The translations under genes were made by a program, and so were the position numbers. 64,000 nucleotides of DNA. It comes from Bolinopsis microptera (Eukaryota > Ctenophora > Tentaculata > Lobata > Bolinopsidae). Where the stretch lies: contig NC_087076.1 of NCBI RefSeq assembly GCF_026151205.1, forward strand, positions 15,398,419 through 15,462,418. The letters are read 5' to 3'. Position 1 is the first letter of the stretch. Each line of letters starts with the position of its first letter. Under the pieces are notes generated by a model that was not told the DNA's origin, made no database searches, and was given only the letters and a program-made list of their open reading frames with translations. Positions 7,242-17,745 of the stretch are shown one piece after another.

Positions 7242-10200
7242 ATGGTTGTATCGCTTCTACCTTCAACTGTGAAACTCAGAGATCTGATCAGGCAGATCAG
7301 GTCTGCTAGGACTGCTGCAGAAGAGAGAGGCATTATAACCAAAGGTTTGTGAAATTATAGCTTTTAGGTTTTATCAAATTTTTCTCATCAGAGGCACTAA
7401 ATGTGGATACAATACATTATCATTTACTGAGATAACAATGTGCACAGCATGAAATATACCACGCATTATACTCTCTATCACCTTAAACATTCACTGCTCC
7501 TAAACTATAAATAATAACTACACTGATTTACTTTGTTTTCTTGAAATTGTTGTTTTCTTGACTTATTCTGTATCACAGAGTGTGCAGCGATAAGAGATAG
7601 CTTCAGAGAGGAGGATAATGATAACAGGTGCAGGAATGTTGCTAAACTTCTTTACATCCACATGTTGGGATTCCCTGCTCACTTCGGACAACTGGAGTGT
7701 CTTAAACTCATTTCTTCTCCGAGATTTGTTGATAAACGAATTGTGAGTAATTATGTGATGCTTTAAAAAATATCGTTTTGAAATACAGATAGAATTCTTG
7801 GTCGCTGTCACATTTCGGCGTCATTTTAACGGAACTGGTAGCATGAGTGTTAGCCCTTATCAACTTTGTGCCAGCTGCCAGGGCTAATCAGGAATATCAC
7901 AGAGTCCGGCTGTGTGAGTTAGAAATATTTAATAACGGAGTGACTCAAGCTCACTGCAGCAACATAAAATTGTGTTTTATGTTAAATTAATGAAATGTTA
8001 ACGATGAAATTATGTTATTAATGAAATGTATTATCTTATTAATGAAATGTATTATCTTATTAATGAAATGTATTATCTGATCACGTGTCCAACAACAGGG
8101 CTATCTGGGAGTAATGTTGTTGCTTGATGAACGCCAGGATGTACACTTACTGGTTACCAACTGTCTGAAGAACGATTTGGGACACAGCACGCAGTTTGTG
8201 TCGGGGCTTGCGCTCGCAGCGCTTGGTAACGTGTGTAGCGCTGAGATGGGCAGAGATCTTGCACCTGAGGTAAATAGTTGGATTCTCGCATTCCATAACT
8301 GGTATATTGTTTCAATCCCTAACTGTTTGTGATAAAAGTGATAAAATGACATAGGTTATTCCCAGAATGTAAGAATGTTTAGTTTATGTAATGGAATAAA
8401 CTATTTCGTAGGTTGAAAAGTTATTAAAATCGTCGAACGCATTTTTGAGGAAGAAAGCAGCTTTGTGCGCTGTCCGGATTATAAAGAAAGTTCCAGATCT
8501 TATCGAGGTAATGTTTATCTAAATTAAACTATAAAATTGTGAACGTTTTTCAACAGCTAGCAATAGATTGTTGCAAGTTACTCCATTTATGATTCGATTT
8601 TAAACTACTAAAAATAGTGCAGAAGTAAAGATTGATAAGTAAACAATTTTACCGTTTTTGAGATCAAGCAATAGTTGATTGTTGCCTAGTAATTACAGCA
8701 GTAATTCGTGTACTTGGTTTCTTATATCAGACTTTTTAACAAAGTAGAACGTATATAAAACGTGTTAGGCTTCTAGAACTAAGTTATCTGTGTAATCGGT
8801 ATTAGTTTAGAAGCGTACGATTTGAAACTACTCAAAGTTAAAATCTAATCAAAACATAATGATAAATAAGATCATCAAAAATGTTCATAAAAATATCTTA
8901 AATCAAGAATCAAGATATAGTTTAGATTGATAGTAATAAAGCAAATATTCAGGTTTTCATCCCGCTAACAAAAGCTCTGATAAACGAACGAAACCACGGA
9001 GTACTTCTGACAAGTGTTATACTGATCAGAGAAATGTGCGACATAAACCCTGACTGTATTATCCACTTCAAGAAGTGTATCTTTAACTTGTTACGAGTGC
9101 TCAAGAATCTGATAATGGCCGGATATTCACCAGAACACGACGTGGCTGGATGTTCGGACCCTTTCTTACAGGTTGGGCTTTATAAGTATTTGTTACTGTG
9201 TACATACCTTTCTTACAGGTTGATGTTTATAAGTATTTGTTACTGTGTATACCTTTCTTACAGGTTGGGGTTTATAAGTATTTGTTACTGTGTATACCTT
9301 TCTTACAGGTTGATGTTTATAAGTATTTGTTACTGTGTATACCTTTCTTAGAGGTTCATGTTTATAAGTATTTGTTACTGTGTTTACCTTTCTTACAGGT
9401 TTTATAAACGTAATTTATTGTGTAATGATAGACTTGTAATGTTGCAGTTGGATTGTTTTAATCTTATTGTTTCTTGAGAGTTCTGTGTTTTACCACCGTA
9501 TAAGATTATATATTTGTGTCCTGCCATCTCTACTTAACAGTTTGATCGTTATCAGATTGTGATTTGTGTGTCTAATTAGTACACAACTAATTACTCCTGC
9601 TTTACCCCAGGTACAATTATTGAGGTTGCTCGCGGTCCTTGGTAAAAGTGACGCCGATGCAAGTGAGCAGATGAACGATATTCTAGCACAAGTAGCAACC
9701 AACACCGAAACCAGCAAGAATGTCGGAAATGCCATTCTGTACCAGACAGTGTTAACTATCATGGATATAGATGCAGAAAGTGGGCTCAGGGTTCTTGCTA
9801 TCAATATTCTTGGACGATTTCTGCTTAATTCTGATAAAAACATAAGGTAAGTGTCTTTCTTGGTGTGCTAGAACTGTTACAACTTCAGAGATGTACCTTA
9901 TTTGCGTATTAATTGATTCATAGCTATTTTCATCGTACCATTTGGAGCAATGTGCACATCAAATTGCCACTAATCCAACATATTGAACAGCGATTTAAGT
10001 ATTATATGGAACACGCGGTGGGAAAATTAAGGCAGTCCCATTGTATTTACAGGGCTGACAATGTAGTATTTTTGCGCGCGACCGTAACGAGCCGAGCGCG
10101 CATCGCATCGTGTGTGACTAAATTATACGATTACAAAGATCACAAGTTTACCAAAATTGATACGTTGATTATCTGTTCCCTTGCTGACTATCGGCTGTAA

Positions 10201-13200
10201 TTATTGGCTTTACTATATGTATCCATTCTCATACGCTCTATTGAAATGCAACGTAATAGTCATCTTCTTATCTAAAGTAGAACACATTCAGAACGCATTG
10301 CCCACGTGGCACCGGCTGACTCAATAAATCCCTTTCTCACTCCTAACAGTAACGTGACTTTATCCAAGAATCGACATGACTACCTAACAACTACAGATTC
10401 AATCTCAGATACGTAGCGTTGAACACTCTGCTGAGAACGGTTCACATCGACAAGGCCGCAGTACAGCGACACCGAAACACAATTATAGAATGTCTGGCAG
10501 ACGTTGATATCTCGATCAAGAAGAGAGCAATGGAGCTCCTCTTCGCCCTAGTTAACGAAACCAACGTCAGATCCGTGATAGGAGAGTTGGTTAGCTTCCT
10601 GAGCACTTCAGCACCAGCCGAGCTGAAAGCGCAGCTTACCTCTACTATTATCCTTCTGTCTGATAAATTCGCTCCAACTAAACGGTGGTAAGTTGAGCGA
10701 ACTAGTCGTGTTATTATCATTGGTAGTTAATTTATATCAATGAGAAAGAGGGTGAATCTATCGGTTATGATGGCTCTCATCCAGCTAGTACAGTAAATGA
10801 ATATTCGTGAAACAGAAGGTGATATATCCTGAAGTTTAACGGTTTATGCCTAAATCATTACTTGTGCTACAAACTGTGGTGACAGATTGTAGCACAAGTA
10901 ATGCTTTTATGAACCTTAAAAAGTTGAAACTCATGATAATTCACACAGGTACATGGACACAGTGCTGAAAGTTCTGATATACGGTGGACACTACGTGAGG
11001 GACGATGTTGTCAACAGTGTTACTCAATCTATCTCTGAATCCCCTGAGATGTATGCTTTTATAGGTAAGAATAAACTCTTACTGGTTACAAGCGAGTCGA
11101 CCCACTTAATTTGATTTAAGAAACATTCACTGCTCATTAAGTGCCCACATAGGCGTGACCTATTGTAACGGGATTGTAACTATACCTCGATATTTTCATA
11201 CACTGAGACCGTCATTTTCTTTCAAAACCATTCCAGTCCTGTAAATGAACTATGTGGTCAGGCTATGACGTGAGATGGTGTTATAATTACTTCCAGAATG
11301 AAGAAATTCTGCTGTAACATGATCCTTTTAATACCAACATCATTTAAACTGTGGACCATAAAACTGCGTGAAGTTTAATTTATTTCCTGCACAGTTCAGA
11401 AGCTGTTCCTGGCCCTCCGGGAGGACATTTCTCAACAACCTCTGGTACAAGTGGCAACCTGGGCGATAGGGGAATACGGCGAGCTTTTGGTGGCCGGTAA
11501 GTGACCTTTGAAGAACTGGATATTAAAATAAATGGCATATTAAGCAATTTGTAACTTAATAATGTCAATCAATTGACTTGCTTCTCGGGTAAGGGCTACA
11601 TTGACATGTTGACATGCTGAGACTCATCCACATAGTGGGTCTGTCAGCCACAGTATATTTGTGGCAGACCAGTTATAACATAACATGTACTTAGCGGTTA
11701 AACTGATTTCAAGATTTTTCGTAATGTTTGTTTAAAACATGGGTTTTGGATACTTTTTCAATATAATGAAGAAATTTAAACAAAATTTTGATTCGCTTCA
11801 TCTGACTATACTCAAACACAACGATTTATTTTCTACAGAATATATGGTCCCAGTCTTCGCACTTACAAGCATACTTACCTGATGTCGAGGTTAAAACCGA
11901 TCTTCAAGGGTTTTCCTCCGGGCGGAGTCTTTCCATTGCACAACGGTTAGATGAAATCTGCAGTTAGGACAAATCGTCCTACTCTGGGCATATAATTTGT
12001 GGTAGCGGGTGCTGCGGAAACGCGCACCCTTCTAACTGAACAATACCAAAAGATAGGAGGAGCAATACTCTGGGACCTGTAATGGAGAAGATGCGACATA
12101 ATATGGCTGAGCTCTTGATCATTTATCGGAAGATTATTGCGGTTATTTGGGGTTTTACTGTACACAGTGTTAGGCTACAGCTCGAATCGAGTATATTGGA
12201 AACCTGAGCCTAGTCATTAAACGAATTTTATAATGAGTCTATACATCAGTTGGATATACATTATACATCATTTCGGTGTGTACACACTAGTAACTAATCT
12301 ATAAATGATGTTGGATAATATTTAGGTTGTTTTTATGACGTACTCAGAACGTGCAGTCTCAGAAAGGCTCCGTCTCGTTAAAAAGATTACGTGCCGTCTA
12401 GTTGGGCTCTTTAGTATGGGGAAGCAAAGTTTTGTAACCAGACAAAATTGCTAAACGTCTTACAAAAGCATTAAACAAGCTAACAACTTGCGTAAAATCA
12501 TAAAAGACAAGCTCAGCCTTATCATAGCTTCTCCAATCTCCATTGTAGATCCATTGTTCCTACTGTCTTCCAATTTTGTTTAGTTAGAAGGGTGCCGCGT
12601 TTCCGCAGCACCCGCTACCACAAATTATATGCCCAGAGTAGGACGATTTGTCCTAACTGCAGATTTCATCTAACCGTTGTGCAATGGAAAGACTCCGCCC
12701 GGAGGAAAACCCTTGAAGATCGGTTTTAACCTCGACATCAGGTAAGTATGCTTGTAAAAGCGAAGACTGGGACCATATATTCTGTAGAAAATAAATCGTT
12801 GTGTTTGAGTATAGTCAGATGAAGCGAATCAAAATTTTGTTTTAAGTTCTTCATTATATTGAAAAAGTATCCAAAACCCATGTTTTAAACACTTATTACG
12901 AAAAATCTTGAAATCAGTTTAACCGCTAAGTACATCCAAAGATTGATTATACTTATTATCCTCATTGATCACATTAATTCAGTTACTTATTACCGCAACG
13001 TCCAAATATTTTATAACTTGTCTGCCACAAATATATTGTGGCTGACAGACCCACTAAGTTGATGAGTCATAGCACGTCAACATGTCAATGTAGCCCTTAC
13101 CTGGGAAATCATCCAGAACATGTAAACATAGTTTGTGACATGGTCTGACACCCTAACAATGACGTACTACTACAGGACCATGCGATATTGGAGAGCCGGT

Positions 13201-15219
13201 GGAGGTGTCCGAGTTGGAAGTTGTGGACACTTTAGAGCACATAGTTACTGGATCAGTGTGCTCTAAGGTTTCTAAATACTACACTCTAAATGCTCTGATG
13301 AAGCTTAGCACGCGGTTCAAGACAGAAGCGGATCGTATTCAGAAGGTGAGGCACTTCATAATCACTATTAGTACCTGATCTACATAATCACTAAAGTTAC
13401 TGTTTTTATCGTTAAATATAAATTTCTATTGATTTCTCTTGTAGCCAATTTAATCTAGTTGTATCGCTGGAATCTGTTCTACATACCATACTTTTTTGTA
13501 TCTCTATTTCTGCCTGCTTCTTACTCGCATCAAATCTCAACTACCGGAAATCAGACTATTAATGAGATCGGATTAAAATCATTGGTTTAATCCCCGATTA
13601 GTCGTCCGGAAATCAATTTTGAGTTAATTGGTTCGTTCCGCTTAGATTTCTATCAAAATCGTTTATAAGATTGGCCAAATTTCTCCTTCGCATTAGAACG
13701 ACCGTCTTTTTATCTTCGCAATTAATTGACGATGATCAGTCATCACATACAATAAACAAGATTTATTTACATAACAAAATAAATATGTTGATTGTTTGCT
13801 CTCGCCGTTCTATTAAATTTACTTATAAAATTGCGGAAAATTACAAGTAATTTACCGTCATTTCGAAAATTTCTCATCGACATACATTTTTATGAATTCG
13901 TAGAAGTTCGTAAAATACATATGTTACACCAAGGTCGTTAAAATCTTAAACAATATTTTTGCATACTGGAGAACTGTGGAGAACATTCGGCGGTCTACTT
14001 CAAATAAAAAACTCTCAGCTCAACTGGTTGCAATTTCAGATAATCGGTTACTTTACGATAAGTACAAATGTGGAACTGCAGCAGAGGAGCGTGGAGTACC
14101 GTACCATATTCAAGCAGTATGATGGTATGAGAACGGCCTTGTTGGAGAGGATGCCCGTCACAGTTGCTGCGGATAAACAACAACCCGAGAAAACTGAAGC
14201 TCTCCTTGATGTTAGTCTACTAATACAAATAAAATATACCTAAGGGGTCGTTCACATATTACGTAATCACTTTTTAGACAATTTTTCCAAAAACATAGCT
14301 ATTGTGTCAAATTACACTAGCGTAATCATTTGGAAACCCCCCTCCCCCTCGGCTGATTACGACTACGTAATAATCAGCCTTTTCGTAACTATATTTATTC
14401 AGGACGTTACAGAAGGAATTAATTTAATGTAGTTTGAGGAGTCCTCACTCTCCTCACGTCCATAAAAATGGCGTTTCTCTTTTCGCTAATAGTAATATAA
14501 ACGACCCCTAATGGCAAATATTTTACCAGTCCTTTGATAGACTTTTTACTTACTTTCAGTCACTCAAATAAGATTTGCAGCTTCGCAGAAAATCTTGCAC
14601 AAATTTTGCGACGTAAATTGAATTTGCGTTACAAAGTTTGTGCAAGATTTTCTACAATAACTGTAAGTGACATGATTCCCCTCAGAGTGCTCCAGCAGCA
14701 GAACCAATAGTACAAGAGAAGCAGGAAACCGAGCAAGACTCCTTACTGAACCTGATAGGAGGTCTGGTTGGAGACGCTCCGGCGCCTCAACCACCCGCCC
14801 CCTCCTCCACCGCTGCCAACAACGACCTCCTCATGGATCTGCTCGGTCTGGACTCAGGACCCGAACCAACCCCGACCATCCCTCCCCTCACTGCTGTGAA
14901 CAAACAGGGTCTCCTGGTAACCTTTAACTTCTCGCGTGACGGGGACAAGTTGAAGATAGTGGCGGAGAGCAGGAACAACACAACCACGCCAATCTCCAAC
15001 TACGTGTTCCAGGCAGCAGTTCCGCGGAGTATCCAGATCGCTCTGAGTGCTGCCAGCTCCTCAACCATCTCTCCAAACGGTACCGTTCACCAGGAGATGC
15101 TGATCAATAACCCCACTCAAGCTACCCTGAAAATGAGAGTTAAGATCGCGTACAGCTCGGGAGGAGCTCCTGCTCCTGAGATTCAGGAGACAGTGGGTTC
15201 TTTTCCGGTATCTTTCTGA
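7242..15219 (+). CDS. AP1G1: AP-1 complex subunit gamma (gamma-adaptin), 12 coding exons
   Basis: Large subunit of the AP-1 clathrin adaptor, which sorts cargo between the trans-Golgi network and endosomes. Exons: 7242-7344, 7579-7742, 8099-8269, 8412-8507, 8953-9171, 9611-9846, 10409-10687, 10949-11064, 11395-11496, 13176-13345, 14040-14210, 14686-15219. All junctions are GT/AG and the sum (2361 nt) is in frame, giving 786 residues against about 820 in vertebrates. Conserved blocks include [85 protein letters not shown] and [14 protein letters not shown]. The adaptin trunk covers about residues 1-600. The hinge has clathrin-box-like LLNLI (629-633) and LLMDLLGLD (657-665). The ear domain runs from about 678 to the end. 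The start ATG follows an AG dinucleotide, so an upstream 5' UTR exon or trans-spliced leader is possible. Confidence 0.96.
8018..8080 (+). repeat. 21-bp tandem repeat in AP1G1 intron 2
   Basis: Three copies of a unit containing TTAATGAAATGTATTATC, just before the acceptor of exon 3. Simple local duplication. Confidence 0.8.
9161..9400 (+). repeat. 45-bp tandem repeat containing the exon 5 splice junction
   Basis: The end of exon 5 plus its donor (CCTTTCTTACAG then GTT) is repeated. CAG|GT junctions fall at 9171 (the real donor), 9218, 9263, 9308 and 9398, and a variant GAG|GT at 9353. Spacing is 47 and then 45 bp. Each unit reads TATAAGTATTTGTTACTGTG plus the junction motif. Because the motif is a pyrimidine run plus CAG directly followed by GTT, each unit looks like an acceptor and a donor at once. 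Confidence 0.93.
10856..10903 (+). repeat. Perfect 17-bp inverted repeat in AP1G1 intron 7
   Basis: Arms CATTACTTGTGCTACAA (10856-10872) and its exact complement (10887-10903) around a 14-nt loop. RNA from this intron would form a stable stem-loop. It is shorter than a usual pre-miRNA. Confidence 0.85.
11871..12029 (+). ncRNA. U1 spliceosomal snRNA gene, copy 1
   Basis: U1 snRNA pairs with 5' splice sites in pre-mRNA. The 5' end is ATACTTACCTG, identical to the canonical U1 5' end. A stem-loop II core, CTTTCCATTGCAC, keeps the U1A-binding loop. A compact stem-loop III (TAGGAC/GTCCTA) is followed by CATATAATTTGTGGTAG, which holds the Sm site ATAATTTGTGG exactly as in other animals. A terminal GCGGGTGC stem closes the RNA. 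It is 159 nt, the normal size. A 3'-box-like ACCAAAAGATAGG follows at about 20 nt. In copy 1 the terminal stem lacks one G relative to copy 2 (ACGCGCACCC versus ACGCGGCACCC). The loop I core differs from the usual ATCACGAAG. It lies in sense orientation within AP1G1 intron 9. Confidence 0.93.
12590..12749 (-). ncRNA. U1 spliceosomal snRNA gene, copy 2 (antisense to AP1G1)
   Basis: Reverse-strand partner of copy 1, 160 nt, with the 5' end at 12749 and the same ATACTTACCTG start, U1A loop and Sm site. Its terminal stem (GCGGGTGC with GCACCCGC) pairs better than copy 1, so this is the more canonical gene. The 150 bp upstream match copy 1 almost exactly, so both carry the same presumed snRNA promoter. 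The two genes face each other, with about 560 bp between their 3' ends. On the AP1G1 strand its 5' end reads CAGGTAAGTAT, an ideal 5' splice site. Confidence 0.93.
14244..14508. mobile_element. Harbinger-like MITE in AP1G1 intron 11
   Basis: 265 bp bounded by terminal inverted repeats, GGGGTCGTTCACATATTAC at the left and the complement of GGGGTCGTTTATATTAC at the right. It is flanked by TAA on both sides (14241-14243 and 14509-14511). A 3-bp TWA duplication and a G-run terminus fit PIF/Harbinger MITEs. It has no coding capacity. Confidence 0.8.
14587..14653 (+). repeat. Long near-perfect hairpin in AP1G1 intron 11
   Basis: An arm starting AGAAAATCTTGCACAAA at 14587 is followed within a few bases by its complement, ending at 14653. 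Pairing is about 33 bp with a few mismatches and almost no loop. It lies just before the branch-point region of exon 12. It could be a MITE remnant or a small-RNA precursor. Confidence 0.8.
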
Positions 15220-17745
15220 GCTGGCTCCTTCATTTAGTTCCTACAAGCTGGTACTTGCTTAGGATTTACGAACACGTCTCGTAGACTCTTAAAATCATGT
15301 TGTAATTATGCGATATAATACATCACTTTGAGGTTTTACTTTAAAGTTGAAATTAAATTAAACTTTTTGACCGTAAAGTTTTACTTCCGTAATGTTTAGA
15401 GTTGAGTTAAAAGATTAAGGAATGAAAATGCTATGCTAGTATATAAAATTACTTCTCCTTTTTGTGGGTATGTTAGAAATTTGATATTGTTAGTAGAACA
15501 TCACGCGGTGTTCTTATTTCACAACATCCTGATAATTTCATCAGTTTGGACATTTTCAGAAATGCAGAATCGATCACTTCAAAGGCATTTTGCACGTTAA
15601 AACAGTATCCCTGGCATTGAAATATTATAATTTTAACGATAGCTATCACTGCACTATTTCTTCTGTAAGAGTATCCAGTATATTTTCCTGCTAATTTTTA
15701 TTCTCTTGTTAATATGAATATATTATAGAATGTCAAAGTAGAGTGTTTGGGCCAGTGTGTCTGTATGGTGGGTTTTTAGTAGTGTGCGCCCCCTGAATTA
15801 GAATATGGATATGATTTAATTTTGTAAAGTTTTTAGATAGCGCCATTAATCTAGTAAATGTTAAATTTTGAAATTAGAATACTGTCGGCCGATTAAATTA
15901 AAGTGGCCGTTGACTTGAAAAGTGTTAATTTAATTCGGGCATCTGTTTTTCTCTACTGTTGAATCGTCCGTCTCTCTTACCACTGGAATGTGAAAACTGT
16001 GATATCTTTCCTTTATCTTCCTAATAGTAATATAATTAAATATAATGTGCCAGGTTAACCCGTGTAATTGTGCGATACGTGCTAATGTGAATATTATGAT
16101 TATATTAAATGAATGTTTTGTGATTTCACGGAAATAAACTTGTCGTTATTACTTAGAATTCGTCTTCCCGAATTCACCTAAAGAAGAATTACAATAAATT
16201 TCACATACGAAGTACGCGGTTAGGTTTCAATGGATCGGGGGCTGTTGCATGTTTTAACTGTCCAAGCCGAAGTAAGCATGGAGGCAGTCGCATGTTTTAA
16301 GTCAAGGAGTCTAGTAGTTTCCTCGCGGTCAGGTGGGAGGGAGAGGAGAACGCCGCACCAGAGTAGATGAAGGAAAAGACAAAGTTTTACAAAATGTTAA
16401 AAATAATTTCTTTAACACAAGGTATAATTATGTCAAGATCTTTCTTCTCTCTCTCACGGCCAGCATCATATGTAGTTCGCATCTTGTACACATAACACGG
16501 ACATAAAGACGGATCAGCCAGGGCTTTACATCCGGAAAATATTCCAGATTACACACCCGAAAAGAGATAGTTTACATACATGGCAAAACTCATTGTGACA
16601 GAAAATACAATATAACCCAATAATATAACTCTGTGCGATTAAACCGGCCGACTTAACGCCTAGACAGACTTAACAGTCGTGGTCAATCTACGATTGGCGG
16701 AATTGAAATTGATCACTATGATACGATCTGCTTCGCCATTACACCACGGAAATCGAGGTGAGCCTGTCTAGGCGCTAAGTTTCTAACTTGGATCAGCGCA
16801 GGGAGCCATTCATAATCACTCAAATCACATGCCGTATATTTCTTGTCGGTGTGATAATAAACCGAAATCTCGATGTTTAAGTATCGAAATTTACTTGTCC
16901 TAGCTTTTGCTTAAGGGTTTCTTATAATATATAATCACAATCGAATCGGTTTGGGAATCTTGATCATGTACTCGAAGCTCCAGCATGCTAGTTCAATTTG
17001 GTTTCCATTTGATTTAAACCCCGACGCAAAATTGCGGTATCCATTGCTGTGAACTTTCTACAAATCAAGATTTCCAATCTTTTCAAATCCAGCATCAAAA
17101 TCAGTCTTAAATATTATGTAAGTTATTTTTCTTCATAAAAAACAGTTAATAAATCATTCCATTAAACTATATGCATAGATCTGCACATATTCTGTAAATT
17201 ATATTTTGAAACCTAACGATCAATCAATCGTATCATAGCTCTCAAGTATCATCATGCTAAGAATAGCAGTTTAACAATAGAATGAATTAATCTATATAAA
17301 CACATTTAAACGAGACATCAAGAATTGAAGAGGGCCTTGCCCCGATAAATTTGCACATCACTGTACACCCAAATTATATTCTAGTACCATACAGTTTACC
17401 AAACGTTTCGGGGCAAATAATTTAATCCTTCACCAGCATCTGTATAATCAATAAAAACATTAAAGTTTTGTAAACGTTTATCAGGGAGGATGTTTTAAAA
17501 ATTCGAACATTTGTTGATCACCTTCGCTCATCAAGAGTGTGCTTGTTGTCTTGCAACGAGTACAATCATGTGTAAGTGTGAATATCACGGGGACAATATG
17601 TAATGTGTGATGAATGATAATTCTTTTCTTTCTCTCTTTCTCCCGACTCCAAAAAATAAAGCCTGCTTCTTCACATTATCATTCTGCATCGCGGAACGAG
17701 CACGTATTCTATAGCCTGTCCCTGTCCAGGCTTACTGCGACGCCG
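15220..17745. other. 3' UTRs between convergent AP1G1 and MEF2; no other gene seen
   Basis: AP1G1 3' UTR sequence begins at 15220. An AATAAA at 16133-16138 is a plausible polyadenylation signal, about 915 nt after the stop. The rest, toward the MEF2 stop at 17746, must hold the MEF2 3' UTR on the other strand. No ORF with family features was seen, and the MEF2 polyadenylation site could not be fixed. Confidence 0.55.

Follow-up and report, generated by a model that had tools for sequence, protein, structure and literature searches.

Intron 9 of a gene for gamma-1 adaptin (AP1G1) holds two convergent U1 snRNA genes on opposite strands, each with its own promoter element, and the copy that is antisense to AP1G1 offers the host transcript a perfect 5′ splice site and the signals of a complete pseudo-exon. 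In the predicted fold of the intron this splice site is paired with the 5′ end of the sense copy. On balance, we consider it probable that these are two genuine U1 genes produced by a local inverted duplication, and that the pseudo-exon of the minus-strand copy is masked by its sense twin.

Results

Two U1 genes in one AP1G1 intron

The window, the whole 64-kb stretch of DNA that was analysed, spans C5:15398419-15462418 of a genome assembly of 264.65 Mb in 232 contigs. A splice-site exon model with an open frame up to the stop places the AP1G1 coding region at 7242-15220 on the plus strand, with 12 exons and 786 residues. Its top match in the PDB is 1w63_A, an AP-1 gamma-1 subunit (E 1.6e-258, residues 6-601). 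Intron 9 (11497-13175, plus strand), between exon 9 (11395-11496) and exon 10 (13176-13345), is the longest in the gene at 1679 nt, the remaining 10 introns measuring 142-694 nt.

Other features of the gene were seen in passing. T stands at position +3 in three of the 11 AP1G1 donors (GTTTGT, GTTGGG and GTTAGT; window 7345-14215), and animal genes are expected to carry fewer such donors than this. The end of exon 5 with its donor (CCTTTCTTACAG/GTT, the slash marking the junction) recurs, by eye, as about six tandem copies in intron 5 (9159-9405), each of which could act as acceptor or donor. An intronic hairpin at 14573-14666 gives a weak, sub-threshold match to a microRNA model (30.3 bits, cut-off 70), and an intronic inverted repeat at 10852-10907 has 26-nt arms with 4 nt between them.

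At its gathering score of 69.5 bits, the Rfam U1 model RF00003 matches the 64-kb window in two places only, both times over its full length (1-166). The plus-strand copy at 11871-12030 is sense to AP1G1 (82.9 bits, E 5.3e-19), and the minus-strand copy at 12589-12749 is antisense (87.6 bits, E 2.3e-20). Their 3′ ends face each other at a distance of 558 nt, and their starts are 878 nt apart. Both copies carry the U1 5′ end ATACTTACCTG (RNA AUACUUACCUG), which pairs with 5′ splice sites, the ATTGCAC loop of stem-loop 2 (SL2, AUUGCAC), which is the U1A site, and the Sm site ATAATTTGTGG (RNA AAUUUGUG). The SL1 loop for U1-70K is GAUCAYGAAG; it reads GAUCUUCAAG in both window copies and GAUCUUCUUG at several other U1 loci, and the CUUCAAGG loop is the pair's own signature among the U1 copies. 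Stem-loop 4 folds in both, with 10 unbroken base pairs in the minus copy and 9 in the plus copy, where a 1-nt deletion leaves one bulged U.

A first-pass annotation of this DNA had described two U1 genes on opposite strands between AP1G1 exons 9 and 10, each with the exact U1 5′ end, the ATTGCAC loop and the Sm site, and the covariance search bears this out. Its gene coordinates (11871-12029 and 12590-12749) have the right location and are one base off at each 3′ end. It had named as its refuting condition that the U1 model would score both copies as pseudogenes and that neither would give RNA; on the sequence side the claim stands, as the model scores both above the cut-off.

Upstream alignment and a matrix identify a proximal sequence element (PSE), CAAACACAACGATTTATTTT, for each gene. 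That of the plus copy lies at 11813-11832 (plus strand) and begins 58 nt upstream of the gene; that of the minus copy, at 12788-12807 (minus strand), is identical. The element scores 24.3, within the leave-one-out range of 8.4-31.8 for 28 other U1, U2, U4 and U5 genes (a matrix using eight of the 10 U2 loci, and in which the U5 gene L068 has only a poor match, at -101). Two of 127,960 window positions reach this score, and they are the two copies themselves. Relative to the U1 consensus the element differs at 3 of 20 positions, alike in both copies. A PSE near -60 is common to the aligned U1 loci (10 of 11, the degraded locus at C12:4477053 being omitted) and also precedes U2, U4 and U5 genes. 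Words resembling AAARNNAGA, which we take to be the 3′ box consensus, are seen by eye downstream of the genes. Since both copies carry the promoter element of the genome's other snRNA genes and score above the U1 cut-off, both are probably genuine U1 genes, and both are probably transcribed.

The inverted duplication

The arm alignment confirms the inverted duplication that had been proposed for the pair. The left arm lies at 11582-12114 (plus strand) and the right arm at 12509-13107 (minus strand), with approximate edges in both cases, and a 69-nt stretch of the right arm (12938-13006 in the alignment) is missing from the left. Identity is highest on the genes and their promoters: the U1 bodies match at 160 of 160 positions, apart from the 1-nt deletion in the plus copy, the first 70 nt upstream at 68 of 70 and the next 116 nt at 111 of 116. 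The near-identical upstream sequence is therefore real, but reaches about 186 bases rather than the 150 bp first described. The outer part matches at 91 of 103 positions besides the 69-nt indel and the 3′ flank at 27 of 36, so that 100% identity in U1 stands against 75-88% in these two segments. This pattern would fit conservation of the genes, local gene conversion, or both. The central spacer, at 116 of 249 (47%), is unrelated.

Two other origins for the arrangement were considered and rejected. A fold-back assembly artefact is unlikely because the arms diverge unevenly (identity 47-100% by segment, spacer included), differ by the 69-nt indel and enclose an unrelated spacer. A mobile-element origin was rejected after a genome DNA search with 11582-13107 found no dispersed element that carries the flanks; all 10 candidates were scored, and outside intron 9 the matches take in only U1 itself, roughly 60 nt before it and no more than about 20 nt after it.

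A predicted pseudo-exon in a predicted foldback

Reverse-complemented, the U1 5′ end reads CAGGTAAGTAT, a perfect 5′ splice site. In the AP1G1 sense, the minus copy presents it as CAG/GTAAGTAT at 12739-12749 (plus strand), and all 11 positions of this donor can pair with the U1 5′ end. With approximate donor and acceptor matrices, not trained on this species, the donor at 12741/12742 scores 12.7, the best in intron 9, compared with 3.0-12.0 for the 11 real AP1G1 donors. Across both strands of the window, three of 7436 GTs reach 12.7, this donor included. Splice-site scoring predicts a pseudo-exon of 158 nt at 12584-12741 (plus strand), consisting of the reversed U1 gene, whose acceptor, at 5.5, outscores the real acceptor of intron 9, at 2.3. 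An alternative acceptor AG at 12547-12548 (plus strand, score 7.6) would begin a 193-nt exon at 12549. The acceptor-like AGs sit in the reversed 3′ flank of the minus U1 gene. A score of 5.5 is not rare, as it is reached by 521 of 8258 window AGs, and three of the 11 real AP1G1 acceptors score higher.

Read in frame, the pseudo-exon reaches a stop at codon 544 with 12 nt still to run, and three exons follow downstream. By the approximate matrices, it has the sequence features of a poison exon that leads to nonsense-mediated decay: a strong donor, a usable acceptor, an in-frame stop and downstream junctions. The perfect 5′ splice site of the antisense copy, with the complete pseudo-exon that it closes, is the most specific link between the pair and splicing, and it is the link that the first-pass annotation missed. 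That annotation had correctly anticipated that the host intron RNA could form one long foldback. The minimum free energy (MFE) fold of intron 9 reaches -970.2 kcal/mol with 367 arm pairs, compared with -399 to -410 kcal/mol in three of three folds with the left arm shuffled.

The donor is fully buried in this fold. Its mean unpaired probability is 0.00 and its probability of pairing with the sense U1 5′ end is 1.00, compared with an unpaired probability of 0.40-0.50 in all three left-arm shuffles. The acceptor is only partly covered (mean unpaired 0.29, versus 0.41-0.46 in the shuffles). Pairing this strong is expected from any close, recent inverted repeat, and selection is not required to produce it.

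U1 loci and their hosts across the genome

An Rfam search (42 of 3149 candidates scored) and a DNA search (11 of 11) together gave 11 U1-like places. By identity to the minus copy in the DNA search, eight of them, including the window pair, stand at 97-100% and the others at 81, 73 and 72%. The U1 bodies of the window are 97-99% identical to six other loci, on four contigs.

Host genes were sought for the 10 full-body loci, leaving aside the degraded one at C12:4477053 (81%). Hosts were picked by eye from open frames, followed by Pfam on selected frames, so that unrecognised hosts would be missed. Host exons were recognised next to all 10. Nesting, which had been presented as unusual for the window pair, is thus the rule for the U1 genes of this genome. 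Host exons lie on both sides at eight loci (two in AP1G1, two in an epsin-like gene, one in a tectonin-like gene, one in the ketoacyl synthase gene at C3:16766 and two in an OPA1-like gene) and on one side at the other two (a TPR gene on C11 and the ketoacyl synthase gene at C3:16850). The host names epsin, OPA1 and SPAG1/TECPR1 are putative.

The epsin-like gene, with ENTH exons at C5:3478764-3480317 and its next exon near C5:3490629, encloses the U1 loci at C5:3485879 and C5:3489170. The Dynamin_N exons of the OPA1-like gene fall within C3:6417472-6419327 and its Dynamin_M exon lies at C3:6399807-6400037; the gene would enclose the U1 loci at C3:6400227 and C3:6406404 if it is one gene. Pfam support is weak for the last epsin exon (E 0.091), the Dynamin_M exon (19.5 bits, cut-off 28.5), the upper tectonin exon (18.4 bits, cut-off 21) and the C11 TPR match (22.5 bits, cut-off 27.8). 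Pfam gave no supporting match for three further frames that by eye had looked like exons of OPA1, tectonin and TPR genes. Near C3:6406 a frame on the plus strand, the opposite one, looked by eye like a sushi domain, but its only Pfam match was unconvincing (E 0.22, to another family).

Nine of the 10 U1 loci are sense to their host, and the sole antisense locus is the minus copy of the window. Without the window pair the count is eight of eight sense, two of them resembling one segmental duplication. Read in reverse, all eight standard U1 loci, the window pair included, give CAG/GTAAGT, and two variants give CAG/GTTAGT. Because the perfect donor appears in reverse at every standard locus, any antisense intronic U1 gene should carry a pseudo-exon risk.

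The two variants, L012 (C3:16850284) and L013 (C3:16766214), are 72-73% identical to the minus copy, carry a PSE, and lie in the sense orientation in or beside introns of ketoacyl-synthase genes. Their 5′ end is ATACTAACCTG, with U changed to A at position 6, and would pair with GTTAGT donors. The idea that they serve donors with U at +3 is not supported, as AGGTTAGT is not enriched in 200,689 bases (6 versus 11 in the reversed control), in a test that was underpowered, AGGTAAGT itself reaching only 13 versus 9. Planarian U1 variants with an altered 5′ motif, changed at another base, have been described (PMC6312358). Among the remaining loci, L008 (C11:12470859) has an altered Sm region, AGAATTTATGCTA in place of ATAATTTGTGGTA, and a good PSE match. 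The surroundings of the degraded locus, L011 (C12:4477053, 81%), by eye look like the C12:4653318 region copied with many errors and with single-base runs, and it is perhaps an assembly duplicate.

Other snRNA genes of the genome

Where a neighbouring gene was recognised beside a U2, U4 or U5 gene, the two mostly share their orientation too; one case is on the opposite strand. Three of nine U5 loci have a clear neighbour (FKBP, TIG and ribophorin I) and a fourth a weak one (an SRP19 match), all on the same strand. Four of 10 U2 loci have one (adaptin, FGE-sulfatase, LRR and reprolysin), on the same strand for the locus where an exon was seen. For U4, two of three loci are on the same strand as their neighbour (TBC and amine oxidase) and one is on the opposite strand (a 7tm receptor). 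The sense bias is therefore not specific to U1, and it need not reflect the 5′ splice site.

Inverted copies are found for U5 and U2 as well. The U5 genes L063-L065, at C9:13452265 (plus), C9:13452783 (minus) and C9:13454260 (minus), have identical PSEs. The first two form a convergent inverted pair whose 3′ ends are separated by about 408 nt, and the third is also inverted relative to the first. The inverted flanks are 92% identical over 437 nt and 94% identical over 419 nt. The U2 genes L035 and L043, at C2:12346151 (plus) and C2:12350689 (minus), form a convergent inverted duplication of about 1.2 kb at 96-97% (96% over one stretch of 697 nt and 97% over another of 546 nt); its minus locus contains 70 N. 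Beside this pair lies a minus-strand exon of reprolysin type, and the U2 plus copy would be antisense if the pair shares the reprolysin host. All three inverted cases, the window U1 pair, U2 and U5, are convergent. Together they make inverted duplication a repeated route to snRNA copies in this genome, of which the window pair is one case.

Discussion

In the model we favour, a segment within AP1G1 intron 9 was duplicated locally in inverted orientation, which would have given two U1 genes, each with its own PSE and an intact body. The plus copy would follow the genome's pattern, intronic and sense, and the minus copy would be the exception that the duplication made. To the AP1G1 transcript, the minus copy would contribute a complete pseudo-exon whose inclusion would bring a premature stop. 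The sense copy lies upstream and would be transcribed first; by pairing with the antisense copy it would bury the perfect donor in a duplex, and this masking would let AP1G1 splicing tolerate the insertion. We infer masking in the cell, and masking as the reason why this antisense copy persists, from the predicted pairing. In the same way, the foldback may protect AP1G1 splicing or be selected.

Ordinary gene birth alone is the alternative that we take most seriously, doubtful as we find it. The two genes would be redundant, the pseudo-exon would never be recognised, owing to a weak acceptor or missing enhancers, and the foldback would have no role. Since U2 and U5 genes have also undergone convergent inverted duplication, the arrangement calls for no particular explanation, and an acceptor as strong as that of the pseudo-exon is not rare in the window (521 of 8258 AGs). 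What gene birth leaves unexplained is why this is the sole antisense copy among 10 U1 loci, although a single exception is also expected as a by-product of inversion. It is unlikely that either copy, or both, is a pseudogene whose similarity is maintained by gene conversion from active U1 genes. The plus copy does lack one base in stem-loop 4, and both PSEs show three departures from the 20-position U1 consensus. However, both copies score above the U1 cut-off with core motifs intact, their PSE falls within the range of other snRNA genes, and the deletion merely bulges one U in a stem-loop that still folds.

Other alternatives give the pair a regulatory role. The antisense copy might sometimes be spliced in as a U1-responsive poison exon, its stop lowering AP1G1 when U1 is abundant or when helicases or ADAR editing open the duplex. 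The donor, which pairs with the U1 5′ end at all 11 positions, and the in-frame stop, placed 12 nt before the exon end with three exons downstream and so predicting nonsense-mediated decay, speak for such a role; the same donor is predicted to be fully buried, and we think the role very unlikely. If it were true, a housekeeping transport gene would read out spliceosome supply. An extension of this idea is to us equally much a long shot: antisense intronic U1 genes would be self-made exon traps that are selected against, and the AP1G1 trap would have been kept as a poison exon sensitive to U1 dosage, with the sense twin as its lid. We give slightly less credence again to control by collision or double-stranded RNA, in which convergent U1 transcription and the long foldback would regulate AP1G1 through interference, small RNAs or editing. 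Transcription of snRNA genes covers only a short unit and stops a little past the gene, and with 3′ ends 558 nt apart the two units need not run into each other. Still, the convergent starts lie 878 nt apart in a transcribed intron, the MFE fold has 367 arm pairs, and inverted Alu pairs in human pre-mRNA are edited (PMC526178). Locally, our preferred reading, duplication with a masked pseudo-exon, replaces this general idea with a specific splice junction, 12741/12742.

The window genes resemble the dispersed U1 genes of other metazoans in their full-length U1, 5′ recognition sequence, SL2 loop, Sm site and upstream PSE, and differ in forming a convergent inverted pair in one intron, with one member antisense to the host. 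Moths have about 10 scattered U1 copies (mean near 10 by qPCR, with ten representatives; PMC8190105), and this genome too has about ten. The U2 (C2:12346151/12350689) and U5 (C9:13452265/13452783/13454260) duplications share with the window pair the convergent inverted copies and duplicated flanks, and differ in having putative hosts only.

Alu elements offer the nearest parallel for the pseudo-exon. Alu elements lying antisense in introns supply cryptic splice sites, through which they can turn into disruptive exons (PMC3629564). There, as here, a short non-coding gene-like unit lies antisense in an intron and offers cryptic splice sites. The danger in Alu comes from the reversed poly(A), and here it would come from the reversed U1 5′ end, in a pseudo-exon predicted from sequence alone. 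Inverted Alu pairs in one pre-mRNA also pair with each other, and editing of the duplex can alter splice sites (PMC526178); the opposite copies in intron 9 are likewise able to pair, the repeat in this case being an intact-looking U1 gene. Human nested genes can force exonization or intron retention on their host, but those described are tandem nested genes with effects upstream of them, in an account that nowhere uses the word snRNA (PMC3192792). Of the L1s nested in human genes, those in tandem are the rarer (PMC3192792), unlike the sense bias seen here, and orientation rules thus differ between kinds of insert. Among the leading titles of a literature search that covered few subscription journals, none dealt with antisense U1 genes as exons or with convergent snRNA pairs.

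In this genome, then, nesting of U1 genes is ordinary and inverted pairs occur repeatedly; what is exceptional is the antisense orientation, which yields a concrete predicted pseudo-exon. Should antisense U1 genes behave as exons ready for use, a simple placement rule would follow, by which U1 genes lie sense in introns or else between genes. It would also give a gene a new way to sense the supply of U1.
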